From Aequitasia blattaphilus (GTDB taxonomy: Bacteria > Bacillota > Clostridia > Lachnospirales > Lachnospiraceae), in contig NZ_JAMXOD010000006.1 in NCBI RefSeq assembly GCF_024721305.1, positions 1-64,000 on the forward strand: a DNA stretch of 64,000 nucleotides. Direction: 5' to 3'. The notes under the pieces were generated by a model, which did not search any database, had not been told where the DNA came from, and worked only from the letters and a program-made list of their open reading frames with translations. Positions 30,611-51,164 of the stretch are shown piece after piece. Each line of letters begins with the position of its first letter. The stretch's first letter is position 1. The position numbers were made by a program, and so were the translations under genes.

Positions 30611-30624
30611 GGAGGAAGTAAAAA

Positions 30625-32427: not shown

Positions 32428-32442
32428 GGAGGAAAAGGAAAA

Positions 32443-32883: not shown

Positions 32884-32886
32884 ATA

Positions 32887-32951: not shown

Positions 32952-33134
32952 AACACATAAAATGTATCAATTAATACAAAGTATTGACTGAAATTAAAAA
33001 AAGATATAAATGTGATTCTGGATAAAATAAAAATTAATGAAAAATTAAGTTTGAAATAATTGTGTTAATAGTCGATATAATATACTCTATACATAAGAAT
33101 TTTACGGTCAAAAGAGAAGAGAAAGGATTATAGC

Positions 33135-33275: not shown

Positions 33276-33293
33276 CATAGACCATGTTTTATA

Positions 33294-33348
33294 TTGACAG
33301 CAGAGAAAGAAAAGAGTATGATATAATCAAAACCGAAACGTTTCGGTT
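33294..33348 (+). promoter_or_regulatory. Promoter of the aldolase-lacI-kinase operon with LacI-type operator
   Basis: TTGACA (33294-33299), 17 bp, TATGAT (33317-33322), followed by the perfect palindrome AACCGAAACGTTTCGGTT at 33331-33348. The central GAAACGTTTC is typical of LacI-family sites, and a lacI-type gene is second in this operon. The same 18 bp control the aldo/keto reductase operon at 17638-17655. Confidence 0.85.
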
Positions 33349-33372
33349 AAATCAAAAATGGAGGATGAACAT

Positions 33373-34224
33373 ATGTCATTAGTAACATCAAAAGAAATGC
33401 TTTTAGAAGCGCAAAAGGGCGGGTACGCAGTAGGTGCTTTTAATGTAGAAAACATGGAAATGGTCTTGGCAGTCATTGAAGCGGCAGAAGAAAATAACGC
33501 ACCGGTTATGCTTCAAACTACACCATCCACAGTAAAATACGCATCCTTAGAAATGTATTCCGCAATGGTAGCTGCAAGAGCAAAGAGTGCAAGTGTCCCG
33601 GTATGTATCCACTTAGACCATGGAACAGACTATAATCTTGCAATTGGAGCAATGGATGCAGGATATACTTCAGTAATGATTGATGGCTCCCATGATTCTT
33701 TTGAAGAAAATATTAAAAAGACAAAGGCAGTTGTTGATGTTGCAAAGGCAAAAGGAATTCCCGTTGAGGCAGAATTGGGAAAAGTAGGTGGCAAAGAGGA
33801 TGATTTGGTATCAGATGGAAATGCCAACACAGATCCTATGGAGGCAAAAGAGTTTGTAGAGAGAACGGGTGTCGATTCTCTTGCAATCGGAATTGGTACA
33901 GCTCATGGTTTCTATGTGGGAGAGCCAGTACTTGACAAGGAGCTTGTATCCAAGGTAAAAGAGGTAGTCTCCATCCCTCTCGTTCTTCATGGTGCATCCG
34001 GTTTAAGTGACGAAGACGTAAGGGAATGTGTACAACGGGGAATGTGTAAGGTGAATTTTGCAACAGAGCTTCGGGTAGCATACACAGATGCAATGAAAAA
34101 ATTGGCAAAAGAAAAACCGGAAACCTTTGATCCAAAGAAATATGGAACAGTAAGCATGGCAGCAGTAAAAGAACAGGTAACAAACCGCATGAAGGTTTGC
34201 GGATGCATAGGGAAAGCAAAGTAA
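33373..34224 (+). CDS. Class II aldolase of the FbaA/GatY/KbaY family
   Basis: A zinc-dependent ketose-1,6-bisphosphate aldolase of 283 residues that would split fructose- or tagatose-1,6-bisphosphate into dihydroxyacetone phosphate and glyceraldehyde 3-phosphate. Metal and active-site motifs are CIHLDHGTDYN, IGIGTAHGFY and LVLHGASGLSD. The length matches the short GatY/KbaY/Bacillus-FbaA type. The frame opens at ATG 33358, but GGAGG (33360-33364) fits ATG 33373. Its stop overlaps the lacI start (TAATG). Neighbouring GatD-like and PfkB genes favour tagatose-1,6-bisphosphate; fructose-1,6-bisphosphate cannot be excluded. Confidence 0.9.
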   Translation: MSLVTSKEMLLEAQKGGYAVGAFNVENMEMVLAVIEAAEENNAPVMLQTTPSTVKYASLEMYSAMVAARAKSASVPVCIHLDHGTDYNLAIGAMDAGYTSVMIDGSHDSFEENIKKTKAVVDVAKAKGIPVEAELGKVGGKEDDLVSDGNANTDPMEAKEFVERTGVDSLAIGIGTAHGFYVGEPVLDKELVSKVKEVVSIPLVLHGASGLSDEDVRECVQRGMCKVNFATELRVAYTDAMKKLAKEKPETFDPKKYGTVSMAAVKEQVTNRMKVCGCIGKAK

Positions 34225-35216
34225 TGGCTGCGACAATGAAAGATCTGGCGAGGGAGACGGGTCTTGGGCTGGCCACAATATCCTCTTATTTCAATGGGGG
34301 AAATGTAAGAGAGAAGAATAAAGAGAAAATAGAGACTGCTATCAAGAAGTTAAACTTTGAAATCAATGAGGTAGCAAGAGGATTAAAGACGAATCATACG
34401 AAGTTGATAGGAGTTGTCATTCCGGAGCTGGATATGATATTTTGTGCCCAGATTATTACAGAAGTAGAAGATATCCTGAGAAACTATGGTTATGCTACGA
34501 TTGTATGTGACTGCCGTTCCGATGAAAAGCGTGAAGAGGAAGCATTGGACTTTCATTTTCATAGAAGAGTGGATGGTTTAATTATTATGCCGACATCCAC
34601 AAACGGCAAAGGGCTTAAACGATTTCTGGAGCATAATAAGCCAGTCGTTGTAATCGACCGAAAAATAGATGGAGTCGATTGTGACTGCGTCCTGGTGGAT
34701 AATGAAAAGGCTGTAAAAGATGGGATTGCAAGGCTGATAGAGGAAAAGCACGAGAAAATTGGATTGATTGCAGGTCCATCTGATATTTATACATCAAAAG
34801 AGCGAATAAAAGGGTATCACAAAGCACTAAAAGAGAGAGGATTGCAAGTAGACAAATCCCTGATTTCCTGTGGAGATTTTACGATTTCAGGAGGTGCAAA
34901 GGCTATGGCAAGACTCTTGGATACGAGACCAGATATGACAGCAGTCTTTGTATCAAACTATGAAATGACCTTGGGAGCTATGATTGAATTAAATGAAAGA
35001 GGAGTCAAGATTCCACAGGAACTTTCATTTATAGGGTATGACAATAAAGAGTTTGCTTATGCAAGTAATCCACAGTTATCTATTGTTGCACAGCCAACAA
35101 AAGAAATGGGAAAGGCTGTAGCACAATTAATACTGAAACGACTGCAAGGTGATGGCAACGGGAAGAGAAAGATATGGAAGCTGGAAACGGAGTTTATTGA
35201 AGGGAAGTCAATTTAA
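34224..35216 (+). CDS. LacI-family transcriptional regulator
   Basis: A 330-residue repressor: helix-turn-helix TMKDLARETGLGLATISSYF with hinge helix AARG-like EVARGLKTNHT, then a sugar-binding-protein-like core (LIGVVIPELDMIF, VDGLIIMPTS, VVVIDRKIDG, LSFIGYDNKEFAY). The frame is open from 34197, but the start is taken at ATG 34224, overlapping the aldolase stop by one base with AGGGAA upstream. It most likely binds the AACCGAAACGTTTCGGTT palindromes at 33331 and 17638. The inducer may be a phosphorylated or free sugar of the operon. Confidence 0.92.
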   Translation: MAATMKDLARETGLGLATISSYFNGGNVREKNKEKIETAIKKLNFEINEVARGLKTNHTKLIGVVIPELDMIFCAQIITEVEDILRNYGYATIVCDCRSDEKREEEALDFHFHRRVDGLIIMPTSTNGKGLKRFLEHNKPVVVIDRKIDGVDCDCVLVDNEKAVKDGIARLIEEKHEKIGLIAGPSDIYTSKERIKGYHKALKERGLQVDKSLISCGDFTISGGAKAMARLLDTRPDMTAVFVSNYEMTLGAMIELNERGVKIPQELSFIGYDNKEFAYASNPQLSIVAQPTKEMGKAVAQLILKRLQGDGNGKRKIWKLETEFIEGKSI

Positions 35217-36734
35217 ATGGAGTCAAGGAAAAAGTATTTATTGGGCATTGATCTTGGAACCAGTGCATGTAAGGTGGCGATATTTGATAAGTCAGGTGAG
35301 GTGGTTGAAAGCGGAGCCGGAGATTACCCTGTTTACTATCCAAAGGAAGGATGGGCAGAGCAAAACCCTGATGAATGGTGGGAGGCCATTTGCCACTCGA
35401 CGAAGGAGTTGTTCAAAAAGTGCAATATCTCCCCAGAGGAAATTGCAGGAATTGGGGTGGATGGGCAAAGCTGGTCTGCTATTCCAATCGACAAAAGTGG
35501 GCAAGTACTTTGTAACACTCCAATCTGGATGGATACCAGGGCGGATGAAATATGCCAGAAAGTAAAAGAAAGAATATCTGAGAAAGAAATGTTTCAGCTC
35601 TGTGGAAATCCCTTTAAGCCATCCTACACAACTCCTAAAATTCTCTGGTATGAGCAAGAGCAGCCAGAGATTTACAAAAAAATTGATAAGATTTTGCAGT
35701 CCAATAGTTTTGTTGTGTTTAAGCTAACAGATTGTTATTCTCAAGATTTGTCACAGGGGTATGGCTTACACTGTTTCAATATGCGCACAGGAGAATGGGA
35801 CGAAAAAATGGCTGAAAAGTTGGGCATTCCCATGTCTTTCCTGCCAAGGATATACCAATGTCATGAGATTGTAGGAAAGGTAACAAAAAAAGCGGCCAGG
35901 GAAACAGGATTGGCAGAGGGTACACCAGTTGTGGCAGGGGGATTGGATGCTTGTTGTGGAACTCTTGGAGCAGGAGTGATTCATCCTGGTGAAACCCAGG
36001 AACAAGGTGGACAGGCTGGTGGAATGAGTATATGTATGGATGAGTACCATTCTGATCTCCGTTTGATTTTAGGATTTCACGTGATCCCGGATAAATGGCT
36101 TTTGCAAGGCGGAACTACTGGTGGTGGTGGTGTTATGCGCTGGCTCCATCGTGAATTCGGTGCGTATGAAGATTCCAGGAAGAAAGAACTGGGAAAAAGC
36201 GCGTTGGTTCAATTTAATGATCTGGCAGAAGTGGTACCTCCCGGAAGCGAGGGGCTCGTATTTCTTCCCTACATGGCAGGAGAGCGTTCGCCGATATGGG
36301 ATCCAAAGTCAAAGGGAGTCTATTACGGATTAGATTTTTCAAAGACAAAAGGACATCTGATCAGAGCTTCCATGGAAGGGGTGGCATTTTCCCTTCGCCA
36401 TAACCTTGAAGTGGCAAAAGAGGCTGGAGTAGAAGTGCAGGTAATGAAGGCAATAGGTGGATCTGCGAACTCACTTTTATGGACGCAAATCAAGTCGGAT
36501 ATTACAGGGAAACCGATTGTGGTTCCTTCTTCTGATGCAGCGACGACATTAGGAGCCTGTATTTTAGCAGGAGTTGGAGTTGGGCTGTATAAAGATTTTG
36601 AAGAGGCGGTTTCACTTACAGTGAAAGAAACGAGAAGCCATGAACCGAACGAAAGAAACAAAGAAATATATGAAAGAAACTATAATAAGTATATAGAAAT
36701 ATATAAAAATCTAAAAACAGTGATGGATGATTAG
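35217..36734 (+). CDS. FGGY-family carbohydrate/polyol kinase, xylulokinase-like
   Basis: A 505-residue FGGY kinase starting directly after the lacI stop. Motifs: LLGIDLGTSACKVAIFD (phosphate loop), GIGVDGQSWSAIPID with the substrate-contact region, GGLDACCGTLGAGV (catalytic Asp), LQGGTTGGGGVMRWL, PYMAGERSPIWDP and KAIGGSANSLLWTQIKSD. Databases would call it xylulokinase, but no xylose isomerase is present. Followed by a GatD-like dehydrogenase, it is a candidate for phosphorylating an alditol or ketose. Substrate is inference. Confidence 0.88.
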   Translation: MESRKKYLLGIDLGTSACKVAIFDKSGEVVESGAGDYPVYYPKEGWAEQNPDEWWEAICHSTKELFKKCNISPEEIAGIGVDGQSWSAIPIDKSGQVLCNTPIWMDTRADEICQKVKERISEKEMFQLCGNPFKPSYTTPKILWYEQEQPEIYKKIDKILQSNSFVVFKLTDCYSQDLSQGYGLHCFNMRTGEWDEKMAEKLGIPMSFLPRIYQCHEIVGKVTKKAARETGLAEGTPVVAGGLDACCGTLGAGVIHPGETQEQGGQAGGMSICMDEYHSDLRLILGFHVIPDKWLLQGGTTGGGGVMRWLHREFGAYEDSRKKELGKSALVQFNDLAEVVPPGSEGLVFLPYMAGERSPIWDPKSKGVYYGLDFSKTKGHLIRASMEGVAFSLRHNLEVAKEAGVEVQVMKAIGGSANSLLWTQIKSDITGKPIVVPSSDAATTLGACILAGVGVGLYKDFEEAVSLTVKETRSHEPNERNKEIYERNYNKYIEIYKNLKTVMDD

Positions 36735-36746
36735 GAGGTATCATAC

Positions 36747-37793
36747 ATGAAAGCGGCAGTAGTTGTAGCAAATGAAGATGTAAAATATATGGAAGTTGAA
36801 GAACCAAGTGCAGGTCCAGGAGAAGTGAAAGTAAAAGTTAAAATGTCTGGAATCTGTGGATCAGATATTCCAAGAGTTCTTCATAACGGTGTACATTTTT
36901 ATCCCATCGTACTGGGACATGAGTTCTCAGGAGATGTAGTAGAAGTTGGAGAAGGTGTTACAAAGACAAAAGTCGGAGATCGGGTATCAGGAGCGCCGCT
37001 CGTTCCTTGTATGAAATGCGAGGATTGTCAGAAGGGAAACTACTCTCTGTGTAAGAACTACACGTTTATTGGGTCAAGGGTACAAGGAAGTAATGCAGAC
37101 TACGTTGTGATTCCGGAGGCAAATGCAGTTGTTTTTGACGCTTCTATTCCTTACGAACAAGGGGCGATGTTTGAACCTTCTACCGTTGCACTTCACGGAG
37201 TTACCTGTAATGACTATCAAGGAGGAGAATACGTTGCAGTTTTGGGTGGTGGAACCATCGGAATGTTTACCATGCAATGGGCAAAAATCTTTGGCTCTAA
37301 AAAAGTGGTAGTCTTTGATATCAGTGATGAAAGGCTGGAGCTTGCCAAACGATTAGGTGCAGATGCAGTCATTAATACATCAAAAGAAAACTATATGGAG
37401 GAGGCTCTTGCACTGACGGAAGGAAAAGGATACGGATATGTCTTTGAAACAGCAGGACAGCCGGCAACGATGCATATAGCTTTTGAAATCGCCGGCAATA
37501 AGTCTTACGTATGTTTTATTGGTACACCCCATGTAGACTTAAGCTTTACCCCCCAAATGTGGGAAAATATGAATCGAAAAGAATTTAAGCTAACGGGATC
37601 ATGGATGAGCTACTCGGCTCCATTTCCAGGGAAAGAGTGGGAGTTGACTGCCCATTACTTTAAAACAGGACAGTTAAAGTTTGATCCGGGATTTATCTAT
37701 AAAAAAATACCTATGAGTCAAGCCCACGAGGCATTTCAGATGTTTAAAACTCCTGGATTGGTTCAAGGAAAAATATTGTTATATAATGAATAG
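36747..37793 (+). CDS. Zinc-dependent dehydrogenase, galactitol-1-phosphate 5-dehydrogenase-like
   Basis: A 348-residue medium-chain dehydrogenase. Catalytic zinc residues lie in SGICGSDIPRV and VLGHEFSG; the structural zinc cysteines are in PCMKCEDCQKGNYSLCKN; the NAD fold has VLGGGTIGMF. Segments NGVHFYPIVLGHEFSG, FETAGQPATMHIAFEIAG and GSWMSYSAPFPGKEWE closely follow E. coli GatD from memory, which oxidises galactitol 1-phosphate to tagatose 6-phosphate. It follows the FGGY kinase by 12 bp and precedes a PfkB kinase. A sorbitol-type dehydrogenase is the alternative. Confidence 0.85.
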   Translation: MKAAVVVANEDVKYMEVEEPSAGPGEVKVKVKMSGICGSDIPRVLHNGVHFYPIVLGHEFSGDVVEVGEGVTKTKVGDRVSGAPLVPCMKCEDCQKGNYSLCKNYTFIGSRVQGSNADYVVIPEANAVVFDASIPYEQGAMFEPSTVALHGVTCNDYQGGEYVAVLGGGTIGMFTMQWAKIFGSKKVVVFDISDERLELAKRLGADAVINTSKENYMEEALALTEGKGYGYVFETAGQPATMHIAFEIAGNKSYVCFIGTPHVDLSFTPQMWENMNRKEFKLTGSWMSYSAPFPGKEWELTAHYFKTGQLKFDPGFIYKKIPMSQAHEAFQMFKTPGLVQGKILLYNE

Positions 37794-37804
37794 GAGAATT
37801 CCAG

Positions 37805-38737
37805 ATGATAGTAACAGTTACACTGAATGCGGCCATAGATAAGAGATATGTGGTAGAGGAGTTTAAAGAAGGAGAAGTAAACCGGGTAATAGAGTGCGAA
37901 TATACTCCAGGAGGAAAGGGACTTAATGTATCGAAGTCTTTGAAGATACTGGGAACGGAGGTATGGGCAACTGGATTTGTCGGCGGCTTTGCCGGACAGT
38001 ATATTGTGTCAGAGGTGGAAAAGCTGGGTATTACCAGTAAGTTTTTTTCTCTGAAGGGAGAAAGCAGATCCTGTATCAATATTTGGGATGAAGGAAAGAA
38101 GATGCAAACGGAGTTTTTGGAACCGGGAGTAGAAATTTCAAAGAGAGAGCAGGAGGACTTTCTAAAGGCGTTTACAGAAACAATTCGGGAAACGAATATC
38201 GTAACCATATCCGGGAGTGTACCCAAAGGAGTAGCAGCCGACTTTTATAATCAAATGATTGGGATTGCGAAGGAGATGAATAAAAAGGTTATCTTAGATA
38301 CCAGTAGTCCTTTACTGGACGAAGGAATTAAGGCGCAGCCGACGATGATTAAACCGAACATTGACGAAATCCGGGCACTGACAGGAAAAAAATGCGACTG
38401 TATTGATGAGATCATTGAAGCGGCATGTGATTTGCAACAAAGAGGGATTGAAGTGGTGGTTGTATCCCTCGGCAGTGAAGGTTCTTTAATGGCTTGCAAA
38501 GAGGGGGGCTATCAGGCGATTGTACCAAAGATAGATGCTGTCAACACGGTAGGGTGCGGAGATGCGATGATTGCAGGCTTTGCATATTCCTTTGATAAGG
38601 GATGGGACTACGAGGAGGCATTAAAAATGGCCAGTTCGGTTTCTACGGCCTCGGCTATGCACGAGAAAACAGGATTTTTCCATCTCCAGGATCAAAAAAA
38701 GATTTACAGAGAAGTAAAAGTTGTAAAAAGAAAATAA
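37805..38737 (+). CDS. PfkB-family sugar-phosphate kinase (tagatose-6-phosphate / 1-phosphofructokinase type)
   Basis: A 310-residue ribokinase-fold enzyme of the FruK/LacC branch: MIVTVTLNAAIDKRYVVE, substrate motif YTPGGKGLNVSKSLK, and the ATP/catalytic block VNTVGCGDAMIAGFAY with the catalytic Asp. It would phosphorylate a ketose monophosphate to the 1,6-bisphosphate used by the aldolase at 33373. With GatD upstream, tagatose 6-phosphate is the most consistent substrate. It is the last gene before a terminator. Confidence 0.9.
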   Translation: MIVTVTLNAAIDKRYVVEEFKEGEVNRVIECEYTPGGKGLNVSKSLKILGTEVWATGFVGGFAGQYIVSEVEKLGITSKFFSLKGESRSCINIWDEGKKMQTEFLEPGVEISKREQEDFLKAFTETIRETNIVTISGSVPKGVAADFYNQMIGIAKEMNKKVILDTSSPLLDEGIKAQPTMIKPNIDEIRALTGKKCDCIDEIIEAACDLQQRGIEVVVVSLGSEGSLMACKEGGYQAIVPKIDAVNTVGCGDAMIAGFAYSFDKGWDYEEALKMASSVSTASAMHEKTGFFHLQDQKKIYREVKVVKRK

Positions 38738-38815: not shown

Positions 38816-38861
38816 ATGATAAAATATTTAAAAGTAAAAAAAAGTGTTTTCGGTGAAGTTT

Positions 38862-41800
38862 ATGAAAAAGGGCATGTATTTAAAACAAAAGACAAATAGG
38901 AAAGGGTTTACACAGGTAGAGTTGATTGTGGTGATGACAATCATGGTAATTCTACTTTCTTTTGCTGTGTTTGGACTTGTACATTATCAAAGATATGCGT
39001 CATTTAAGCGTAATAATTCCTATGCAAAGGAACTCTTTACAGCAGCACAATCACAATTATCTTATTACAAATCAAATGGAAGACTTGAAGAATTAGAAAC
39101 GGAATTAAAGGAAAGTGAAGACGCTGGAAAAGCCGGGGCAGATATTTCCAGAGCAGCAAATGCAGAGGAACGCCTCTACTACGTTCAGATTCCTGCCGAG
39201 TTAACAGGAGATGAATTAAAGAACAGCTGGGTATATAAACTTACAAAAGATTATATATACGATAAAGCAATCTATACATCTGGCGCAGTACGAATCGAAA
39301 TGGATCCGGTGGAAGGTGTGGTTTATTCGGTTTGCTACAGTGACAAGGCTGACTCTTTTGATGAAAGCACATCAAAAGGTGAAGATGGGATTATTGGAGT
39401 AAGTGTTCCAAATAGAGAATACGAAGTACGAAAAGACATGCTACTTGGTTACTATGAATCGGATATGACGAATCCAGCTCCGGTCAATCGAAATGTACCG
39501 GATATCCAAGAGGCAGTTCTGATAAATGAGGAGAGCTTATATGTAGAGTTTTCGATTGAAAACTCCCAAAAGTTAAATCCCAGGGATTATGGATATTTAC
39601 TAGAGGTCAATGATAATTCTGGTAAAAAGGTAATGGATATTAGGTTGAATGATATTAACAAGGTATCCAGTAAGCTTCCAAATGGAACGGGAGAAGTAAC
39701 GGTTACCTGTGAAACCAGATTTTATGATGCACAAGGGAATGTTATTAAGCAAGGACAAGAGGAGTCTGTTGACTATAAGTACAGAGCCTATATAACCACA
39801 GATAAAAAAATCGGTCTCCTGTTAGATGCAGTGGATTTGAAAGCCAGCAGTATACTTTTGGCGCGCTACCATTCTTACAACAATAATGATAAGCCGGAAA
39901 ATGCAAAGCCTCAGGATTTTAAAGAAACATTTAGTATTATCCGCTTCGGTTTGGAAGAGAATGAAAAGATTAATGTAACAGTAGCTGCATTTGACTCTCT
40001 TAATGCAAAAGGAGAGGCAAAGGATACAAATCTGGAAAACCCTATCATGGAAAGTGTCAGTAAAAAAGATGATGCAAAAGAGTGCAGCATGTCGAATGCG
40101 AGACATCTCTTTAACATAAGATTCCTGGAAATGAAAAAAGGTGAAGGTGGAAATACATACGTACAAACCGGGGATATTGATTGGGCAAGTGAAGCAGGGA
40201 TTATAAAGAAAAAGCGTGTGTATGACAGTAATAATGGGGCGGATAAAGTTGTGATTTCCTACGAAGAGAATTATAAGGAGAATCAGCCATTTCCACATCT
40301 GCCAATATTAAAGAGTAACAGTCGATTCAATGTCAAGAAAGATGGACAAGATAAATTTTATTTTTTGAGTGCATTCGTTATGGTGGCACAGAGTGATCGC
40401 CATGGAATGGGGCTCTTTTTGACGAATGATGGGGCAATAGAAGATATCCATATAAAAAACTTCTATGTCCATCGAAACACCAATGTTCAAAAGCACTATG
40501 CAGGTGCAATTGCCTCCACGAATAATGGACTGATCAAAAATTACTATCTGGAAGATGTAGAGGTAGAGGCTCATAGCTGGGTGGCAGGAGTAGCAGGGAT
40601 TAATAATGGAACCATTGAAAATGGTTATGAGAAAAATGTACATGTTATTGCTGATTATCAGGTGGCAGGTTTGATTGCGGGACAAAATGATGGAACCATT
40701 AAAACGCAAAAAGGCACCGGAATCTTAGAGAATTGCAGTGTGAATGGTAATACAGGAATAGGGGGAGCTGCTGGAGTAAATAAGGGAACAATCAGCAATA
40801 TTTCTTTTAAGGGCTCAACCAGTATTACAGGGAAACGAACCGGGAATTCTACGGCGGGAGGAATTGCAGGAGAAAATCTTGAAGGTGCAGCTATTCGTGT
40901 TGAGGGAGAAATAGATGAGATAAAGCTTGTTGATTTTAGCATAACGGACAGTGCTGTAATGGGAGGAGTTGCAGGAAAAAATGTTGGTAGTGTATCAGGC
41001 TATACCATCGGAAGCAATGTGACCATTCGAACAGCAGTCAGCGCAGGAGCAACGGCATGTGCAGCAGGGGGAATCGTTGGACGAAATGAAGCCCTGGGGA
41101 CGGTGGTGGTTGGAGATGGAAATACAGAACTTTCCAACTATGTTATAGAATGTCCTCACAATGCAGGGGGAATTATCGGATATAATCAAGGAAGTTTGGC
41201 CAATGGAAGTGGAATCGATATACATAATATCTCTGTTACCGGGATAGGTAGTAACATTGGAGGGCTTATTGGACAGAACGATTCTCTTGTTGAAGGATAT
41301 TACTTATATCATGCAGATGTAAGCGGAACGTCAACTTATCTAAGCGGCGGAGTAGGAGGATTGGTTGGGAAAAACAATGCCAATGGAACTGTTAGACCAG
41401 GAGCGAACAGACCCAATGTACTGCAAAATGTATATGTTTCTGGGTTTGCAGCAGCAGGAGGTATTGTTGGAGAAAATTTTGGCTCTGTATGGGATTATAC
41501 GGTTGACAGCAGCTGCAGTATAGATGGAAGTTATCCTCTCAATAGTTCAGGCTATTACCGTGTTCTTGGTGGAGTAATCGGGATTAATAGTGGAACCCTT
41601 GAAAGCAGTGGGGAAATAAGAGCAGTGGACCAACCGCAGATTAATAACAAGGGAAATCGAATGGATATCGTAGGTGGTATCGTAGGAGAAAATGAGGGGA
41701 AAGCCTCAGGGTATACTGTTACAGAAGGAACAACCATCACTGGAAATGGGAATCCGGGAGTGACCAATTCTGCAACGGGCGGTATGGTTGGAAGAAACAG

Positions 41801-44800
41801 AGGAGAATTCACAATAGGCGATGGAAACATTGGTGCCAATGGCTTGACTGTAAATGGAGTGTCAAATGTTGGTGGAGTTATTGGATGGAATGAAGGAACT
41901 TTTGCAAAAGGAAATGCCAACACAGTAATCAGCAGTATGAGGGTCATTGGGACGGATTCGAATGTAGGTGGACTAATTGGACAAAATGCAACAACGATAG
42001 AAGGATATCAGGTGCATACTTCCCATGTTGAGCAAACGGGAACAAGAAGTGTGGCGAATGTAGGTGGGATGATTGGACACAATACAACGAGTGGAAAGTT
42101 AAAGCCCATCAAAAAGGAAATCTATCAACTTACAGAAAACTATGTCCAAGGCTTTAGCATGGTAGGAGGCGTGGTTGGACAAAATGATGGACTCTTACAA
42201 AACTATGGAGTAGGAGAAAACTATATTGTCAAGGGAAATTATACGAGCCCGTCAAACAGCTACACCAGTCCATTAGGTGGTATTGCTGGTGGAAACACGG
42301 GAACCTTGGAAAATGTAGACAACAAAAAAACTGCTATACCGGTTAGAAATACGTCGATTGGAGCCGAGTTTGTGGGTGGCTATGTCGGTGGAATTGTAGG
42401 AGAAAATGCAGGAAAAGTTTCAGGATATGAAGTGGGTGAAGGGGTTGCAATAGAAGGAAAAAACCAGGCGAGCTCAAAAAGCTATAGTGCTACAGGAGGT
42501 TATGTAGGCAGAAATCATGTAGGTGCCAGTCTAAGCATTGGAGACGAGAAAACAGAAACTCTCGTTATGGGACTGGAAATAAAAGGTGTTCACAATGTAG
42601 GTGGAATCATCGGCTGGAACGAGGGTGATTTGGAAGACGGTGCTAAAAATAAGGAGAAAAGATTAGTCAGTATCTTTGATATTAGTGTTCAGGGAAGTGG
42701 ATCGAATATTGGTGGGCTAATCGGGCAAAATGCATCTTCTGTTTTGGGGTATCGAGTGGATCAGTCTACCATAACACAAACGGGAACTGGAAGTGTGGCA
42801 AATGTAGGTGGTGTAATTGGCTATAATACAGAGACAGGAGTACTCCAGCAAATTCAAAAAGAAATCATCCAGCTGGAAGGAAATACTGTTCAAGGCTTTA
42901 GCATGGTAGGAGGCGTGGTTGGACAAAATGATGGAACTGTTTCCAACTATGGAATTGGCAAAAACTATGTAGTGAGCGGGAACTACTCAATCTCCAACCA
43001 CAATTTCACAAGTCCTTTAGGTGGTATTATTGGTGGAAATACAGGTGTTTTAAGTAATGTCAGCAATAAAAAGGAAAATATAAAGGTAGAAAATGCCTCC
43101 ATTGGAGAAAACTATGTGGGTGGCTATGTCGGTGGTATTGTAGGAGAAAACGCAGGAGAAGTGTCAGGATATGTCGTAGAAAGCAGCACCGTGATAGAAG
43201 GAAAAAATACAGTAAGTTCAGCACTGTATGGGGCTACAGGTGGATACATTGGACGGAACCATACAGAAGGCACTTTAAGCATTGGGAATGGAAAAACACC
43301 GGTTCAAGGACTTCATGTTCTAGGAACTTACAATGTAGGTGGAGTGATTGGCTGGAATGCTGGTGAATTCTCCAATATAGTAACCAAAGAAGGGAGTGTT
43401 ACCGGAACCAATCGTGTTGGAGGTTTGATTGGGTATAATCAAGCCAGTGGAAAAATGGAAGGATTGATTAACGGAAATGATGTACAGGCAGCTAAGAAAA
43501 ATGCAGGAGGGGTCATTGGGTATAATGAGAATCCAGCTGAAACCCAGCTGATCTTGGAAAATAGCATTAATTATGGAAATGTAACAGGTGATGTGAATCT
43601 TACAGGAGGATTGGTTGGACAAAGCTCAGGTGCTCTGGAAGTAATCCAGTGCCGTAACTATGGGAAAGGTACAGCACAGCCCACTCTGCTGGGAACGATT
43701 GATCATAATGTAAAGATACAAGATTCTTTCCAGATTCCTACCATAACAGAGGTTGTTTCTGACAACACAACCCCATATTATTCTGCCCTCACTGAAAACA
43801 GCGGAATCATTGTAGAGGGAAGCTACTATTTCAACACAGGAATGAGCGCAGACACGGTGGAGACTCATTTAGTGGTTGTAGGAAATGGCAGTAAGTTTGA
43901 TGGAAAAGCTGAGGATATCCTTATCCTTAAAGGGATGGATGTGGATCCGGAAGCGCCTTCACTGACAGGAGAAGAGTTATACGTAGGAATCGATGAGGCA
44001 ATAAAAAGCTACTATCAAACGAGGAGCCTGATGGAGCCATTAACCGAAAGCCTAAAAGGTGTTACCGAAAGTGTTCTCCCAATTGAGGCCAAGGATTTAA
44101 TTCCTGAGATAAAACAAAAAGAAGAAAATCAAGGAAGTGTAGAGCAGCCGGCAGAACCGGCAGAGCCGGAAACTGAGCCAGTGGAACCAAATGAACCAAA
44201 TGAACCAATGGAACCCGAGCCAGAGCTTCAGTTAAATGTAATGGTCACAGCAAAAGCAGCAGTTCTTTCTACAGAGGAATTTACAAATGAAGGGGTACAG
44301 CTGACTCTTACTGATGAAGAAGGAAACCCAGTAAGCAGAGAAGTGAAAATTGTTATTGGTGATACATTGATAGAGGATACATTTACCCTGGAGGGAAGTT
44401 ATTCAATCACAGGCATTCCAGTTGAGCAGGCTGGACAAGAGATTGGGATTTTGATAGAGGAAGAAGAGTATCGTTTCACGTTACCAAAAGTACGTATGGA
44501 TGCGTTGGAATTAGTTCCTCAGGAATACGAAGATGTTTATCCGGAATTGTCAGGAGAAAATCCAATTCACATATGGCGAGACGGGGTTTTATGGAAGCAT
44601 AATACAGACACAAGTAAATATGAAGCTTATATAACCAGTCTCGGATATCCAAGTGATTTGATGCCGGATGTTGTTGAAGGTGACTATTATCTGGAGATTG
44701 ACGATGCAGAAGGCAGCGTTACAGTTCGTGAGTGGGATGAAGAAACGGGAAAATGGGTTTTAGTGAAACGAAACTTTCAGGATGTTTCCCCGGAATATGT

Positions 44801-45275
44801 GACACAAGAACAATATGAAAAAGATGAGATGCCAATACGTTTGGAAGAAGTAGAAATCAAGAATTATGGATATATACTTCCCTTGGATGAAGAGCGTACT
44901 TTGGATATGCAAAGCATTAAGGTTCAAAAGATAACAAGAAATGGCGAGGTTTATTATCGTATTCTGTTGCCAGATGTCAGGTGGATCCAGATTGGTGAAG
45001 AGAACTTTGCAAATGAATATTTGTACACGGGAAATGTGACAGTAAGACAAAAGGAAAGTGTAAATCCTAACTTTATAGAATCCGAAAGAAGTCAGTGGAT
45101 ACGTCAGATAAACCGCTATAATAGTGATGAATTAGGATTGAGGCTACGAGAATTAAAGCCAGAAGAACGTTCGGATGGAGCTTTTGAATCAGAAGAAATA
45201 TACCTTCCGTTTAAATGGAAAAAGGAGCAGGGAGAGTTGCCTTATGAAAATCAGAAAAACAATCCACTCCCTTAG
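38862..45275 (+). CDS. Giant type IV prepilin-like adhesin with GLUG repeats
   Basis: About 2,137 residues. The N-terminus is a type IV prepilin: basic leader ending TNRKG, cleavage before FTQVELIVV with Glu at mature position 5, then one hydrophobic helix (VVMTIMVILLSFAVFGLV). A non-repeat region of about 500 residues follows. From about residue 555 to 1593 there are dozens of GLUG-type repeats (GGLIGQN, GGIVGEN, GGVIGWN), a beta-helix-like fold. Three blocks of about 248 residues are tandem copies. A Pro/Glu-rich spacer (near 1763-1788) leads to a C-terminal domain. There is no LPXTG. It most likely caps the pilus as an adhesin; ligand unknown. Start ATG 38862 is chosen with GGTGA upstream; GTG 38844 and ATG 38874 are alternatives. 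Confidence 0.88.
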   Translation: MKKGMYLKQKTNRKGFTQVELIVVMTIMVILLSFAVFGLVHYQRYASFKRNNSYAKELFTAAQSQLSYYKSNGRLEELETELKESEDAGKAGADISRAANAEERLYYVQIPAELTGDELKNSWVYKLTKDYIYDKAIYTSGAVRIEMDPVEGVVYSVCYSDKADSFDESTSKGEDGIIGVSVPNREYEVRKDMLLGYYESDMTNPAPVNRNVPDIQEAVLINEESLYVEFSIENSQKLNPRDYGYLLEVNDNSGKKVMDIRLNDINKVSSKLPNGTGEVTVTCETRFYDAQGNVIKQGQEESVDYKYRAYITTDKKIGLLLDAVDLKASSILLARYHSYNNNDKPENAKPQDFKETFSIIRFGLEENEKINVTVAAFDSLNAKGEAKDTNLENPIMESVSKKDDAKECSMSNARHLFNIRFLEMKKGEGGNTYVQTGDIDWASEAGIIKKKRVYDSNNGADKVVISYEENYKENQPFPHLPILKSNSRFNVKKDGQDKFYFLSAFVMVAQSDRHGMGLFLTNDGAIEDIHIKNFYVHRNTNVQKHYAGAIASTNNGLIKNYYLEDVEVEAHSWVAGVAGINNGTIENGYEKNVHVIADYQVAGLIAGQNDGTIKTQKGTGILENCSVNGNTGIGGAAGVNKGTISNISFKGSTSITGKRTGNSTAGGIAGENLEGAAIRVEGEIDEIKLVDFSITDSAVMGGVAGKNVGSVSGYTIGSNVTIRTAVSAGATACAAGGIVGRNEALGTVVVGDGNTELSNYVIECPHNAGGIIGYNQGSLANGSGIDIHNISVTGIGSNIGGLIGQNDSLVEGYYLYHADVSGTSTYLSGGVGGLVGKNNANGTVRPGANRPNVLQNVYVSGFAAAGGIVGENFGSVWDYTVDSSCSIDGSYPLNSSGYYRVLGGVIGINSGTLESSGEIRAVDQPQINNKGNRMDIVGGIVGENEGKASGYTVTEGTTITGNGNPGVTNSATGGMVGRNRGEFTIGDGNIGANGLTVNGVSNVGGVIGWNEGTFAKGNANTVISSMRVIGTDSNVGGLIGQNATTIEGYQVHTSHVEQTGTRSVANVGGMIGHNTTSGKLKPIKKEIYQLTENYVQGFSMVGGVVGQNDGLLQNYGVGENYIVKGNYTSPSNSYTSPLGGIAGGNTGTLENVDNKKTAIPVRNTSIGAEFVGGYVGGIVGENAGKVSGYEVGEGVAIEGKNQASSKSYSATGGYVGRNHVGASLSIGDEKTETLVMGLEIKGVHNVGGIIGWNEGDLEDGAKNKEKRLVSIFDISVQGSGSNIGGLIGQNASSVLGYRVDQSTITQTGTGSVANVGGVIGYNTETGVLQQIQKEIIQLEGNTVQGFSMVGGVVGQNDGTVSNYGIGKNYVVSGNYSISNHNFTSPLGGIIGGNTGVLSNVSNKKENIKVENASIGENYVGGYVGGIVGENAGEVSGYVVESSTVIEGKNTVSSALYGATGGYIGRNHTEGTLSIGNGKTPVQGLHVLGTYNVGGVIGWNAGEFSNIVTKEGSVTGTNRVGGLIGYNQASGKMEGLINGNDVQAAKKNAGGVIGYNENPAETQLILENSINYGNVTGDVNLTGGLVGQSSGALEVIQCRNYGKGTAQPTLLGTIDHNVKIQDSFQIPTITEVVSDNTTPYYSALTENSGIIVEGSYYFNTGMSADTVETHLVVVGNGSKFDGKAEDILILKGMDVDPEAPSLTGEELYVGIDEAIKSYYQTRSLMEPLTESLKGVTESVLPIEAKDLIPEIKQKEENQGSVEQPAEPAEPETEPVEPNEPNEPMEPEPELQLNVMVTAKAAVLSTEEFTNEGVQLTLTDEEGNPVSREVKIVIGDTLIEDTFTLEGSYSITGIPVEQAGQEIGILIEEEEYRFTLPKVRMDALELVPQEYEDVYPELSGENPIHIWRDGVLWKHNTDTSKYEAYITSLGYPSDLMPDVVEGDYYLEIDDAEGSVTVREWDEETGKWVLVKRNFQDVSPEYVTQEQYEKDEMPIRLEEVEIKNYGYILPLDEERTLDMQSIKVQKITRNGEVYYRILLPDVRWIQIGEENFANEYLYTGNVTVRQKESVNPNFIESERSQWIRQINRYNSDELGLRLRELKPEERSDGAFESEEIYLPFKWKKEQGELPYENQKNNPLP

Positions 45276-45789
45276 AGAGGATAAAAAGGGGGATGCCATG
45301 ATTGTCGTATTGGTGGTCATGACAATCCTGGTTGTATTAAGTCTTACAATCCTGCTTTCTGCGTCTACCTTGCTAGGGTCTGCCAGAAAAAATGTGATAC
45401 ACGAAAGATTAAGAACTATGGTTGTTTCCTTTAATGAGACCATAACAAAGGAAGTGGTCTCAGATGAGGAAACAGAAATAAAGACATATATAAAGACAGA
45501 GATTACATCAAAAGCATGGAAAAATGACGAAGATAGAAGCTTGAAAATTACAAATGGACTCACCTCTATGGAGGATTTAACAGAAGGTTATACGGTAGAT
45601 GTAAAGATGAAGTGGTCAGGAGATGACTATCAGAATTACCAGGAGCTGGAGGATTACGCAGGTATTAAGCTTTTCATTACGATGACAGCAAAGAAGGATG
45701 AAGAGCAATACATTATTAAAACCAGCTATATTATGAGGTATGATAATGAGGATGCAACGTGGCGCTGGGAAAAGGAGGAATCAAGATGA
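45244..45789 (+). CDS. PilX/GspK-like minor pseudopilin
   Basis: A 181-residue protein starting MKIRKTIHSLREDKKG, with the prepilin-like site KKG-DAMIVVLVVM and a single long hydrophobic helix. Glu at mature position 5 is missing, as is common for PilX/GspK-type proteins that sit at the pilus tip. The rest is a soluble alpha/beta domain. ATG 45244 lies inside the end of the giant prepilin gene (32-bp overlap), so translation is coupled; GGGAGAG lies upstream. The frame is open from 45175 but has no ribosome site there. Confidence 0.75.
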   Translation: MKIRKTIHSLREDKKGDAMIVVLVVMTILVVLSLTILLSASTLLGSARKNVIHERLRTMVVSFNETITKEVVSDEETEIKTYIKTEITSKAWKNDEDRSLKITNGLTSMEDLTEGYTVDVKMKWSGDDYQNYQELEDYAGIKLFITMTAKKDEEQYIIKTSYIMRYDNEDATWRWEKEESR

Positions 45790-46094
45790 TAAATAATAGA
45801 AAAGGTTCTTCTATGGTATCTGTTCTTATTGCGTTTGCTGTTTTGATGATAGGGCTATCTATTTTTTCGACATCGATTTACTCTGCTGTGCAGACGATTC
45901 AGGTGGCAAACAGCTTGAATAAAAGATCCGATGCAGCGTTCTATGAGTATTATACGAATGATCCAGCAGGAAGCAGTATCTTAAATGCAGGGAATAAAAT
46001 TTATCTGGAGGACGAGGAAACCAAGAGTTTTTCATTAGAGGGAGATGCGTATCAGCAGGAGACAGAGGAATTGGCAGTTTATTACTTTAAATAG
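45786..46094 (+). CDS. Small PilV/GspI-like minor pseudopilin
   Basis: A 102-residue protein, MINNRKG followed by SSMVSVLIAFAVLMIGLSIF, a class III signal with Val instead of Glu at mature position 5. The soluble part is short. ATG 45786 with AAGGAGG upstream overlaps the preceding gene by 4 bp. Its place between the PilX-like and PilW-like genes fits the usual tip-complex gene order. The upstream in-frame ATG at 45759 lacks a ribosome site. Confidence 0.72.
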   Translation: MINNRKGSSMVSVLIAFAVLMIGLSIFSTSIYSAVQTIQVANSLNKRSDAAFYEYYTNDPAGSSILNAGNKIYLEDEETKSFSLEGDAYQQETEELAVYYFK

Positions 46095-46108: not shown

Positions 46109-46651
46109 ATGATTAAGAGATTGAAAAGTAAAAAGGGATTTACTCTTGTAGAGCTTATCGTCACCTTTGCATTAATTGGTATCATTATGATTATAACGAC
46201 AGGAGTTATTGCAAGCTCAATACGGGTGGAATATCGAGTAGAAAATTTGTCCAATGCTCAAGTTGTATCCAGAACGATTCTGGATACCGTTATATCGGAA
46301 CTGGCACCGGCAACGAAACGCCCTTTAGAGTCAGGGAGTGATATTGCCATAAGAAGTCAAAATGGAATGACGGAATTTACAGATAAGAATGGGATTCCCG
46401 TTGTACTTTCTGTAACGGATGAGGGATTATTGAATTTGAAATACAATACAGGAGATGAAAATGTTGACTGGTCTTACGGTAAAAAGTCTTATATGAATAA
46501 TCGGATTGAATCTTTAAGCTTTGAAAAGGAGAGAGAGAATCGAGTATCTGTTACCCTTAAGCTGAAAAACGAAAAGACAGGTTTTGAGTACACAACGAAA
46601 AAAATAATCACATTTTATAATTTAGAAGCAATAAATATGGATTTCCGATAA
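46109..46651 (+). CDS. Type IV minor prepilin, PilW/GspJ-like
   Basis: A 180-residue prepilin: leader MIKRLKSKKG, cleavage before FTLVELIVTFALIGIIMII with Glu5 present, then a soluble domain. The gene is 14 bp after the PilV-like gene, in the same transcription unit. It would join the priming complex with the other minor pseudopilins and probably the giant prepilin. Assignment to PilW/GspJ rests on order and size. Confidence 0.82.
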   Translation: MIKRLKSKKGFTLVELIVTFALIGIIMIITTGVIASSIRVEYRVENLSNAQVVSRTILDTVISELAPATKRPLESGSDIAIRSQNGMTEFTDKNGIPVVLSVTDEGLLNLKYNTGDENVDWSYGKKSYMNNRIESLSFEKERENRVSVTLKLKNEKTGFEYTTKKIITFYNLEAINMDFR

Positions 46652-46792: not shown

Positions 46793-47224
46793 ATGAAAGT
46801 ATTAAACAGATTTAAAAAAGCGATGAAAAACAAAAAAGGTTTTACCCTTGTAGAGCTTATTGTTGTAATTGTTATTATTGGTATTTTGGCAGCGATTTTA
46901 GTACCATCAGCACTTAAGTGGATGGATAAAGCAAAAGACCGCCAACTTATGTCAGAAGGACGTGCAGTTTATAATGCAGTTCAGACTACAGTTGCAGAAT
47001 TTGTATCTGAGGATAAAGAAAAAGATGTTCCATCTGGTGAGATTCCAATTAACTCAAGTGGCGCAGCAGATACTTTTGTTGGCGAGGTATATGAAAATGC
47101 AGGCATTAAAAAGACTTATTCAGCAACGGTAACGCTAGATGCCAAGAAGCAGATTAGTGCATTTGCCTATACACAAGGTGGAAAGACAGCAACGTATAAG
47201 GATAGCAAGTGGGAAGTAAAATAA
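46793..47224 (+). CDS. pilA: Major type IV pilin
   Basis: A 143-residue prepilin with leader MKVLNRFKKAMKNKKG, cleavage before FTLVELIVVIVIIGILAAIL, Glu5, then an alpha helix and a small beta domain (residues about 60-143). No cysteines, so no disulfide loop of the Gram-negative type. GGAGG precedes the start. Its own upstream gap and compact size mark it as the bulk subunit polymerised by PilB/PilC after PilD processing. Confidence 0.92.
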   Translation: MKVLNRFKKAMKNKKGFTLVELIVVIVIIGILAAILVPSALKWMDKAKDRQLMSEGRAVYNAVQTTVAEFVSEDKEKDVPSGEIPINSSGAADTFVGEVYENAGIKKTYSATVTLDAKKQISAFAYTQGGKTATYKDSKWEVK

Positions 47225-47682: not shown

Positions 47683-48438
47683 ATGGCAATTATATACCTA
47701 TTGATTTTTATGATGGGAGCATCAGTATTCTCCTTTCTGAATGTTTTAATTTATCGGGTTCCAAGAAAGATGAATTATGTAAGTGGAAGAAGCATGTGTC
47801 CCAGCTGTGAGCATGAGCTGAACTTTTTGGATATGGTACCGGTTTTTGGCTGGATATTTTTAGGTGGGAAATGCAGATACTGTAAAGAAAAAATTTCTTC
47901 CAGATATATGTTAATTGAAGCGTTGGGGGGAGGATTCTCCGTCTACTTTTTTTATTTGTATAAATGGAGTATTCAAACCCTTTTTGTGTTTGTTCTTTTT
48001 GCTCTTTTGACCTTGATTGCTTTCGTGGACATAGACACGATGGAAATTCCAAATGGATTTGTAGTGTTTGGATTGCTTTTGAGCCTTGTTTCATGGGTGC
48101 TTTTCCCAGGTCTGATGTGGTATGAGAGAATCATTGGGATATTCTCAGCGGCTTTGATTCTTTTGATTATCACCTTGATTGTCCCAGGAGCATTTGGAGG
48201 GGGAGACATAAAAATGATGGCCGCTTTTGGCATTTTACTAGGGTGGAAAATGTCCCTTCTGGCATTGTTTCTTGCAGTGCTGATGGGAGGAATTTATGGC
48301 ATCGTTTTATTGATTCGAAAAAAAGTGAACCGAAAAGATCATTTTGCCTTTGGCCCCTTCCTCTGTATTGGGGTAGGCGCGGCCTTTTTGTGGGGCGGGG
48401 AGATCTTGAGAGTTTATTTAAGTATATGGTCCTTGTGA
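47683..48438 (+). CDS. pilD: Prepilin peptidase
   Basis: A 251-residue membrane aspartic protease that removes prepilin leaders and N-methylates the new end. The N-terminal methylase part has two CxxC pairs (MCPSCEHEL and KCRYCKEKI). The peptidase Asp residues are in AFVDIDTMEIPNG and AFGGGDIKMMAAFG. About 7-8 membrane segments follow. It starts 3 bp after the previous gene. Targets in this locus are the giant prepilin, the minor pseudopilins and PilA. Confidence 0.94.
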   Translation: MAIIYLLIFMMGASVFSFLNVLIYRVPRKMNYVSGRSMCPSCEHELNFLDMVPVFGWIFLGGKCRYCKEKISSRYMLIEALGGGFSVYFFYLYKWSIQTLFVFVLFALLTLIAFVDIDTMEIPNGFVVFGLLLSLVSWVLFPGLMWYERIIGIFSAALILLIITLIVPGAFGGGDIKMMAAFGILLGWKMSLLALFLAVLMGGIYGIVLLIRKKVNRKDHFAFGPFLCIGVGAAFLWGGEILRVYLSIWSL

Positions 48439-48471: not shown

Positions 48472-49674
48472 ATGGCAAAATATAAATTTAAGGCAACCGA
48501 TGCTTCTGGGAAAAAGGTAAGTGGTATTATGGAAGCAGCTACAGAAGAAGCCTTGTATGAGAAGCTGAGACAGCAGAATCTATATGTCTTGTCTTTTACT
48601 TTGGGAGGAGCAAAAGGAAATAAAAAAAAGATTCCAACCCAAGTTCTGGCAGAATTTTCAAGACAGATTGGAACATTGCTCAAAGCAGGTGTTTCTTTAG
48701 TACGTGCTCTTGGAATTATTTCGGGAGACGAGTTAACTAAAAAGAAATACAAAAGCATCTATAATGAGGTTTTAACAAGTGTAAGACAAGGAACAACTCT
48801 TTCGGATGCCATGGAGGATCAGGGAGAAGCATTTCCGCCGTTGATTATCAATATGTATCGTTCTGCCGAGGCAAGTGGAGAACTGGATAAGGTCGCATTA
48901 CGAATGGCCATCCACTATGAAAAAGAAAGCAGAATGAAGACAAAGATGAAAAACGCCATGATTTATCCGTGTATCTTAGGAGTTTTAATTGTTGCAGTGG
49001 TAATGATCTTGTTTGTCTTTGTAATCCCTCAGTTTAAGGAATTATTTGATACCATGGGAGAGCTTCCTTGGATTACCAGGCTTATGATGGGAATTAGCAG
49101 CGTGGTCCAAAGGTTTTGGTGGGTAATTATCCTTGGGACAGCACTGCTAATCTACTTGATTCGTATCTTATTTAAAGTTCCAGAAGTAAAATATCAAAAG
49201 GACAAGCTCAAACTCCATTTACCACTATTTGGAAAACTTTTGAAGGTGGTTTATACGGCCAGATTTGCAAGAACCTTGAGCTCTCTTTATTCAGCAGGAC
49301 TTCCCATTACAATGTCCTTGCCGATTGCTTCTACTACAATTGGAAATGCATACATAGAAGGACAGTTTGAGTCCGTAATTGCCAAGGTAAGAGGCGGTGC
49401 AAATCTATCCACATCTTTGGCAGAAATAAATGGTTTTATTGGAAAACTGATTTCTTCGATTATGGTGGGAGAAGAGACAGGAAGCTTAGACAGTATGCTA
49501 GACTCAATTGCAAACGATTTAGATTATGAATCAGAGATGGCAATTGGAAGAATGATGACCTTTATAGAACCGGTTATGATTATTATTATGGCGATTATTG
49601 TAGGGGCAATTATCATATCCGTAATGCTTCCGTTAATGGGATCATATGATGCAATTGGAAGTATGGGAATGTAG
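48472..49674 (+). CDS. pilC: Type IV pilus inner-membrane platform protein
   Basis: A 400-residue GspF/PilC protein with two related cytosolic domains (residues about 60-185 and 265-385) and three membrane segments (near 165-190, 215-240 and 365-390). Typical strings are FSRQIGTLLKAGVSLVRALG and FARTLSSLYSAGLPITMSL. It links the ATPases to the growing pilus. GGAGGG precedes the ATG. Next in order is the PilM-PilN fusion. Confidence 0.94.
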   Translation: MAKYKFKATDASGKKVSGIMEAATEEALYEKLRQQNLYVLSFTLGGAKGNKKKIPTQVLAEFSRQIGTLLKAGVSLVRALGIISGDELTKKKYKSIYNEVLTSVRQGTTLSDAMEDQGEAFPPLIINMYRSAEASGELDKVALRMAIHYEKESRMKTKMKNAMIYPCILGVLIVAVVMILFVFVIPQFKELFDTMGELPWITRLMMGISSVVQRFWWVIILGTALLIYLIRILFKVPEVKYQKDKLKLHLPLFGKLLKVVYTARFARTLSSLYSAGLPITMSLPIASTTIGNAYIEGQFESVIAKVRGGANLSTSLAEINGFIGKLISSIMVGEETGSLDSMLDSIANDLDYESEMAIGRMMTFIEPVMIIIMAIIVGAIIISVMLPLMGSYDAIGSMGM

Positions 49675-49694: not shown

Positions 49695-51164
49695 ATGTCA
49701 ACATCAATTTATTTATCCAATAATATTATTCGGATTATCGTGGGAGCAGGAAGCGGTAAAAACATTGAAATAAAGAAAGAGATTACCAGAAATATTCCAG
49801 AAGGAAGCTTGATTAATGGTGTTATTACGAATCATCAAGACTTAGAAGAAGAGCTTCGGACTATTTGGAAAGAAGAACAGCTCGCTGTGAAAGATGTTTT
49901 TCTTGTAGTCCACAGCAGTAAGTTTGTTTCCAAGCAGCTGACTCTGGCAGGCGGATCAAAAAAGCAGCTGGAACAAATGCTGCCCTTAGAGTTTTCCGAT
50001 GTAGAAAGATATGAAGAGGCTGTCTATGACTACATGTTGATGCCAAAAACAAAAAGTGGCAATAAAAACGTGGAAGAGCTTTTGGGTGTTATGGCAGAAA
50101 GAAACTTTGTAACGGAGTATATTGAATTGTTTCAAAGGCTTGGAATTAAGCTGTCTGGTATCATCAATGGCATTGGTGCGGCTGTAAAATCCCTGGAGAA
50201 TCTAAAACAGTTAAATCGTAGAAGCTGCATTGTACAAGTGGTAGACGGAGCAAATCTCGAAAGTATACTTTGGGTAGAGGGAGAATACAAGTATTCAATG
50301 AATCGAAGAGTGTTCGCCGCTCCCGGCTCCAGAGAATTTGGAACAGAGGTGATTCGTCATACGAACTCGGTATTGCAATTCTATGGATCGATGAAAATGG
50401 ATATCCCAATTACTGAAATGCTGGTTTGTGGGGCTACTGCTAATGAAATTCAGCTGTTTAGAGAGATTTCAGATGAAGCAGAGATGAATCTGCAAATTCA
50501 TCCATTGGATGTGGCATCAGAGGTGAAAGGAATCGGAAAGACCGAAAAGCTGGCAGACTATATCTACCCATATGGAGCCTTGATTCCCAGAAAGAAAGAC
50601 ATCAACCTTCTGAATACCTATAAAAAGAACCGGGAGTCGATTTCTAAGGAAAGAGAGAAAATGAGACTTATGCTGCCAGGAATTGTGGCATTGATTATAT
50701 GCCTCATTGGTGTGGGTATAGGTGGTGTGATTTACGGTGTGAACAGTTATAAGTACAACCAGGTGGCGGAATATACGACAGACCCGTCAAATCGTGCAAA
50801 ATCCGACGAAGTAATTGAGCTGGAAAGCAAACTTGCAGTAATCGCTTCAAAGGAAAATGAAATGAATTTAACAAAAGAAATGATTTCATCTTATCCTCTT
50901 TTAAACCAGAGTGTTGTCCATACAATCCTGAGCAAGAACACCGGTGATATTTCGGGACAAATCGTAGGATATCTTGCAGAAGAAGGAAAGCTTACTCTGG
51001 ATGTAAAAGCAAAACAGATTACAGCAGTTAACGGCTACGTAACAGCGTTGAAAAACACGAACCTGTTTAGCACAATCGAGTATTCCGGTTACACTTATAT
51101 GGAGAGTGATAATGAATATACTATGAGTATTAGCTGCTATTTGACAGAAAGGGGAGAAGAATAA
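49695..51164 (+). CDS. pilMN: PilM-PilN fusion protein
   Basis: A 489-residue single frame. Residues 1 to about 295 form an actin-like PilM domain (STSIYLSNNIIRIIVGAG; ELLGVMAERNFVTEYIELFQ; GTEVIRHTNSVLQFYGS; MLVCGATAN). Residues from 301 carry DINLLNTYKKNRES, the conserved N-terminal motif by which PilN binds PilM, then a membrane helix at about 322-345, a coiled-coil stretch and the PilN ferredoxin-like end. In other bacteria these are two proteins; here no stop separates them. It is followed with no gap by the PilO-like gene. Confidence 0.85.
   Translation: MSTSIYLSNNIIRIIVGAGSGKNIEIKKEITRNIPEGSLINGVITNHQDLEEELRTIWKEEQLAVKDVFLVVHSSKFVSKQLTLAGGSKKQLEQMLPLEFSDVERYEEAVYDYMLMPKTKSGNKNVEELLGVMAERNFVTEYIELFQRLGIKLSGIINGIGAAVKSLENLKQLNRRSCIVQVVDGANLESILWVEGEYKYSMNRRVFAAPGSREFGTEVIRHTNSVLQFYGSMKMDIPITEMLVCGATANEIQLFREISDEAEMNLQIHPLDVASEVKGIGKTEKLADYIYPYGALIPRKKDINLLNTYKKNRESISKEREKMRLMLPGIVALIICLIGVGIGGVIYGVNSYKYNQVAEYTTDPSNRAKSDEVIELESKLAVIASKENEMNLTKEMISSYPLLNQSVVHTILSKNTGDISGQIVGYLAEEGKLTLDVKAKQITAVNGYVTALKNTNLFSTIEYSGYTYMESDNEYTMSISCYLTERGEE

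Follow-up and report, generated by a model that had tools for sequence, protein, structure and literature searches.

A giant GLUG-repeat prepilin heading a type IV pilus operon in Aequitasia blattaphilus is probably a modular pilin that displays an adhesin

The first 64,000 nucleotides of contig NZ_JAMXOD010000006.1 of Aequitasia blattaphilus (Lachnospiraceae; this whole stretch is the window) contain a type IV pilus gene cluster that starts with a prepilin gene of exceptional length. The gene is a single uninterrupted open reading frame on the plus strand (ATG at 38862, stop at 45275) and encodes a protein of 2,137 amino acids (aa) with a computed mass of 228 kDa, designated here as the giant pilin. 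It is the only match in the 3.2 Mb genome of this organism and is intact there. An alternative GTG start at 38844 would make the protein 6 aa longer, while a start at Met5 would leave a leader of 11 residues; reported prepilin leaders are 6-51 residues long (PMC6916266). We consider it likely that this protein is a giant modular type IV pilin displaying a C-terminal binding effector, most probably an adhesin, on retractable pili.

The N-terminus possesses a class III prepilin site (TNRKG/FTQVELIVVMTIMVILL, the slash marking the cut), with Gly before the cut and a glutamate at position 5 of the mature protein (Glu5, residue 20 of the precursor). TIGR02532 recognized it with 18.2 bits (cut-off 16.3). 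The sole transmembrane-like, hydrophobic stretch of the protein comprises residues 14-43. A sequence scan revealed neither LPxTG or LPxTA nor a hydrophobic stretch at the C-terminus, i.e., the features of a sortase-anchored adhesin are lacking.

A structure model covers residues 1-800. In this model, a pilin module with a long N-terminal helix and a small beta-containing head is followed by a beta-sandwich and then by a right-handed beta-helix (Table 1). The profile of the pilin module matched PilE1 of Streptococcus sanguinis in the PDB (E 1.9e-7), and the predicted fold together with this sequence match supports its assignment as the module of a type IV pilin. Beyond residue 800, the beta-helix probably goes on, because the GLUG repeats continue. 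Indeed, 28 core motifs G[GA]xx[GA]xN spaced by 27-37 residues are present between residues 634 and 1555, compared with a mean of 0.06 and a maximum of 2 in 2,000 shuffled versions of the protein. Pfam GLUG gave no match in the scan of the whole protein, but two sub-segments scored 26.0 and 42.7 bits (6 and 9 stretches, respectively; gathering score 20.5), so that GLUG motifs stand beside a right-handed beta-helix fold, the latter seen in the modelled residues 1-800. Furthermore, pairwise alignment revealed three supra-repeats of 236-248 aa that are 39-62% identical. At the DNA level, Tandem Repeats Finder detected no more than a 9-base repeat, the protein repeats being divergent. The protein thus joins a pilin module to a domain that is not specific to type IV pili (GLUG above the gathering score, beta-helix) and is in this sense a modular pilin.

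The best fold matches found with VIA-align were the IgA1 proteases 7uvk and 6xjb and the structure 3n6z, annotated as a putative IgA1 protease, which could suggest an IgA1-protease-like enzyme carried on the pilus. However, the match to 7uvk and 6xjb lies in their beta-helix, a motif scan found no HExxH (the active-site motif of the M26 IgA1 metalloprotease domain) anywhere in the giant, and Pfam and NCBIfam scans gave no protease family match, so that we find such an enzyme scarcely credible. The beta-helix assignment relies on VIA-align and not on Foldseek, which alone was weak (best match 7uvk, E 8.6e-4, TM-score 0.20 by query length); the GLUG repeat region had no match among PDB sequences at E 1 or better. 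The VIA-align matches chiefly cover residues 222-800; the absence of pilin folds among them is uninformative either way. A beta-solenoid on a pilin is also known from ComZ, which binds DNA (PMC6561018), and the giant could by analogy be a DNA receptor for transformation. The six segments of the giant that were tested are all acidic (isoelectric points 4.1-5.4), which speaks against DNA binding and makes this role very improbable.

The pilin cassette opens with the giant, and the gene of the next prepilin-like protein begins within the end of the giant's gene (start at 45244, giant stop at 45275). Three small prepilin-like proteins are followed by a probable major pilin, a small protein of no assigned family, the prepilin peptidase PilD, and the further pilus genes up to the retraction ATPase PilT. 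The letters K, I, J and H for the minor pilins were assigned by order and weak similarity. Gene count and order make the giant the candidate fourth (H-type) minor pilin, since three small ones are already present. PilB possesses an MshE-type domain for binding of cyclic di-GMP (c-di-GMP; NF053729, 68.1 bits, cut-off 38), so that pilus extension may be under c-di-GMP control, and the presence of PilT in the operon implies that the pili are potentially retractable. In all these respects the original prediction, made from the sequence of the window, is borne out: it had proposed a genuine prepilin site with Glu5 on a GLUG protein of more than 2,100 residues, far larger than normal pilins, placed first in the minor-pilin cassette of potentially retractable pili and having no sortase motif.

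Table 1. Features of the giant pilin and its operon (positions in the window unless a locus is named)
Feature	Position	Strand	Evidence or remark
Prepilin leader, residues 1-15, last residue Gly15	38862-38906	+	Gly15 in 26/26 aligned rows
Pilin module, residues 16-205: 54-residue helix (18-71), small alpha/beta head	38907-39476	+	Predicted model
Beta-sandwich, residues about 210-396, immunoglobulin/fibronectin type III-like (weak)	39489-40049	+	
Right-handed beta-helix, residues about 397-1640	40050-43781	+	Model, fold search, GLUG repeats
Acidic Pro/Glu-rich spacer, residues about 1755-1790	44124-44231	+	
Lineage-specific C-terminal region, residues 1793-2137	44238-45272	+	No Pfam match
Small prepilin-like protein without Glu5, K-like by position	45244-45789	+	No family match above cut-off
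Small prepilin-like protein without Glu5, I-like	45786-46094	+	Weak matches below cut-offs
Small prepilin with Glu5, J-like	46109-46651	+	TIGR02532 23.1 bits, N_methyl 29.3 bits
Probable major pilin	46793-47224	+	TIGR02532 34.4 bits
Prepilin peptidase PilD	47683-48438	+	PF06750 103.7 bits, PF01478 66.1 bits
Platform protein PilC	48472-49674	+	PF00482 172.8 bits
PilM- and PilO-like genes	49695-51842	+	Named by position; first without NCBIfam match at E 1e-10
Extension ATPase PilB	51853-53529	+	TIGR02538 535.7 bits, below cut-off 675.65
Retraction ATPase PilT	53546-54592	+	TIGR01420 450.8 bits, cut-off 319.1
Second large prepilin, locus L095	5280-9953		
Second large prepilin, locus L106	5811-9221		
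Second large prepilin, locus L110	261-3839		

Directly past PilT, the minus strand encodes HydF, the [FeFe]-hydrogenase maturation GTPase (54595-55785). Upstream of the giant (29129-38737) there are genes for deoxy-sugar catabolism, i.e., for L-fucose isomerase, a fucose mutarotase-like and a rhamnulokinase-like protein and 1-phosphofructokinase. We gave these fucose genes no weight as a hint of mucin binding, because their linkage to the giant was seen only within the genus: of the upstream genes, three are again neighbours of the giant in a same-genus genome (L071), but this was true of none of seven other loci checked (E 1e-20; note that one of the seven, L070, has only ~3 kb upstream).

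The giant has many relatives. With the whole protein as query, 32 of 398 genomes of the family gave matches at E 1e-8, and a profile built from 26 N-terminal rows found head-bearing open frames of at least 1,000 aa in at least 45 of the 398 (window genome included). A higher tally of 166/398 genomes was set aside, since many of its rows are short pilins that match the signal helix alone. Loci were fetched from 38 genomes, and 36 giants of at least 1,000 aa were read in 34 of them. They range from 1,103 to 7,662 aa (one being cut by the locus end), with a median of 3,206 aa, so that the giant of the window, though more than ten times as long as an ordinary pilin, is shorter than the median of these long relatives. 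The prepilin site is present in 34 and five or more GLUG-like cores in 33 of the 36. Examples are found in Cuneatibacter caecimuris DSM 29486 (2,834 aa), Ohessyouella blattaphilus PAL227 (1,542 aa), Diplocloster agilis ASD5720 (3,025 aa), Lactonifactor longoviformis DSM 17459 (2,951 aa), Eisenbergiella tayi DSM 26961 (3,054 aa) and Blautia parvula NBRC 113351 (at least 3,965 aa, the frame being cut by the locus end). In a class-level search of 391 genomes, 12 matched at E 1e-14; nine of these are outside the family, three of the nine having frames of more than 1,000 aa. Judged by sequence, the giant is thus a member of a broad family of predicted prepilins, most of which exceed it in size, a point that the original prediction does not include. 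In one genome (G185 contig C36; L046 and L151), tandem giants, each of more than 3,100 aa, head one complete pilus cassette. In three other loci, the gene directly upstream of the giant encodes another large prepilin, of 1,136-1,557 aa and lacking GLUG-like cores (Table 1).

The base of these proteins is constant and the far end variable. The first ~450 residues can be aligned over 26 long relatives, with Gly15, Thr17 and Glu20 invariant (26/26); as these rows were preselected for the prepilin site, the invariance shows consistency and is no independent test. Residues 1841-2137 of the giant, on the other hand, found a match in only one of 387 other genomes searched. A set of 72 C-termini of 450 aa each was scanned for domain families (the one of the window included, the near-duplicate L115 dropped, ten taken from frames of less than 1,000 aa). 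GLUG was found in 15, DUF285 and leucine-rich-repeat families in up to three each, and F5/8 type C in one. NlpC/P60 and cell-wall hydrolase domains (60.3 and 55.4 bits, respectively, in the last 312 aa) occur in a single C-terminus, that of the 7,662-aa prepilin of genome G180 (L138-L140, contig C19, 310577-333565, minus strand), which adjoins PilT and PilB genes.

This 7,662-aa relative, as well as the slot of one of four minor pilins that the window giant would occupy, could point to a role mainly in assembly, i.e., in starting the filament or aiding its passage through peptidoglycan, with adhesion secondary or absent. However, hydrolase domains are confined to this one of the 72 C-termini and are absent from the giant of the window (Pfam scans), and such variation in length and C-terminus would not be expected of an assembly part; we therefore regard this role as improbable. 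Display of an effector fits better: a base that stays the same while its ends are exchanged would be expected of a device that presents adhesins or other effectors. As the C-termini vary most among the relatives, the GLUG part is better read as a stalk than as a binding site. Hence, the original prediction that the GLUG region and the C-terminal domain could bind mucin, other bacteria or plant polymers would have to be narrowed, with the variable C-terminus being kept as the candidate effector and the GLUG region not.

The giants are associated with pilus genes. PilT scored above the cut-off in 41/45 genomes with a listed giant versus 200/353 without (Fisher p 2.7e-6), in a hand count that ignores kinship and in which PilT was judged by E-value for the 45. 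A head-bearing frame of at least 600 aa is present in 28 of the 31 loci fetched; 26 of these carry on the same stretch at least two genes resembling the pilus cassette of the window, and a 27th (G185, with its two adjacent giants) has the whole pilus cassette directly downstream. The one frame without this, of 819 aa, is located on a short contig (L067). In two giants (L147 and L148, also designated L100 and L113; 1,430 and 1,788 aa), the prepilin site is replaced by an ordinary-looking hydrophobic stretch, and their genomes possess neither an A24_N (PF06750) prepilin-peptidase domain nor PilT above the cut-off. The extracellular part can therefore function without pili, and the giant might be a surface protein whose prepilin helix is a membrane anchor only and which is not built into pili. 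However, the prepilin site is kept in all but two of the 36 giants, and the giant of the window adjoins minor pilins, its gene overlapping that of the next one, so that we consider a mere surface protein unlikely. Among the giants read, the predicted prepilin signal is retained where the prepilin peptidase is retained.

Several observations weigh against a pilus-borne giant. Pfam N_methyl just missed its gathering score of 21.2 (19.1 bits for the whole protein, 20.7 for the N-terminal piece). Structure prediction, which had been proposed as a check of the repeat region and the C-terminus, returned the beta-helix within residues 1-800 and for the C-terminal region a model of low confidence (mean predicted local distance difference test score, pLDDT, 39). 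Three of the 31 loci (L049, L053, L064) have a short or interrupted head. The association with PilT takes no account of kinship and has four exceptions. The four giant-bearing genomes without PilT above the cut-off are G127 and G292, which also lack A24_N and whose giants lack the prepilin site, G352, which keeps PilD, and G365, which keeps both PilD and the prepilin site. Finally, Glu5 argues against the giant as the very first, tip-most subunit; the two neighbouring small prepilins without Glu5 would be better candidates for this position.

From the observed architecture, operon, prepilin site, family with its size range, and variable C-termini, the following mechanism can be proposed for a displayed giant pilin. 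The precursor would be inserted into the membrane and cut by PilD after Gly15, and its long N-terminal helix would pack with the adjacent small minor pilins, forming a pilus-initiating complex. PilB would extend the filament, possibly under c-di-GMP control, and PilT would retract it. As the fourth, H-type minor pilin by gene count, the giant may reside at or near the pilus tip. Outside the cell, the beta-sandwich, continued by a stiff rod of GLUG beta-helix estimated at 20-30 nm, would hold the lineage-specific C-terminal domain off the pilus as a binding effector, most likely an adhesin.

More tentatively, the giants of Lachnospiraceae and some other Clostridia may form a separate class of effector pilins, larger than any other described, that take the position of the fourth (H-type) minor pilin in the type IVa operon. 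A constant base of pilin module, sandwich and beta-helix would be combined with swapped far ends (repeat adhesins, carbohydrate-binding-like domains and, in the 7,662-aa case, peptidoglycan hydrolases). As monoderms have no secretin gate, there would be no size limit, so that pili could extend and retract protein arms of tens of nanometres. If the reading of the giant as a pilus-borne adhesin is right, such an adhesin could be tested in many species, e.g. C. caecimuris, L. longoviformis, E. tayi and O. blattaphilus. The question also arises how a subunit of 228 kDa, or of an estimated ~800 kDa in the longest relative, could be assembled into a filament and retracted through a thick wall.

Modular pilins are an established class of more than 1,200 proteins in 264 architectures, the most extreme multi-domain one named having 860 residues (PMC8179133). 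A literature search yielded no account of giant GLUG pilins or of pilins of this size, although the supplementary dataset of PMC8179133, which this search did not cover, may include GLUG pilins. One published tool for finding pilins applies a length limit of 350 aa together with its rules (PMC3244431) and would therefore miss giant pilin genes.

Among known systems, PilC/PilY1 is likewise a large modular effector and is located at the type IVa pilus tip (PMC8179133, PMC10191384), but it has no pilin module, ends in a C-terminal beta-propeller and is reported to be absent in monoderms (PMC9934059). The C-terminal piece of the giant, for which the structure model was of low confidence, gave no Pfam match to such a propeller up to E 10. 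The beta-helices of the GLUG/IgA1-protease type (3n6z, 7uvk, 6xjb) are not borne on a pilin, and the giant has no protease signature. ComZ of Thermus thermophilus, argued to be at the tip, resembles the giant as a pilin carrying a beta-solenoid; it differs in its diderm host, its DNA binding and its solenoid of ~380 residues, which is inserted in the pilin sheet between its last strands (PMC6561018). In the model of residues 1-800 of the giant, the beta-helix comes after both the pilin module and the sandwich. The worked examples of modular pilins are the adhesins PilB and PilC of S. sanguinis (PMC8179133, PMC9934059). Their adhesion has been demonstrated, whereas that of the giant is predicted; they are of about 50 kDa as compared with 228 kDa, and carry von Willebrand factor A (vWA) and lectin modules instead of a beta-sandwich, a GLUG beta-helix and an unassigned end. 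Nevertheless, like the giant, they are minor pilins encoded among the pilus genes of a monoderm with type IVa pili, and combine a Glu5 pilin module with a non-pilin C-terminal module.

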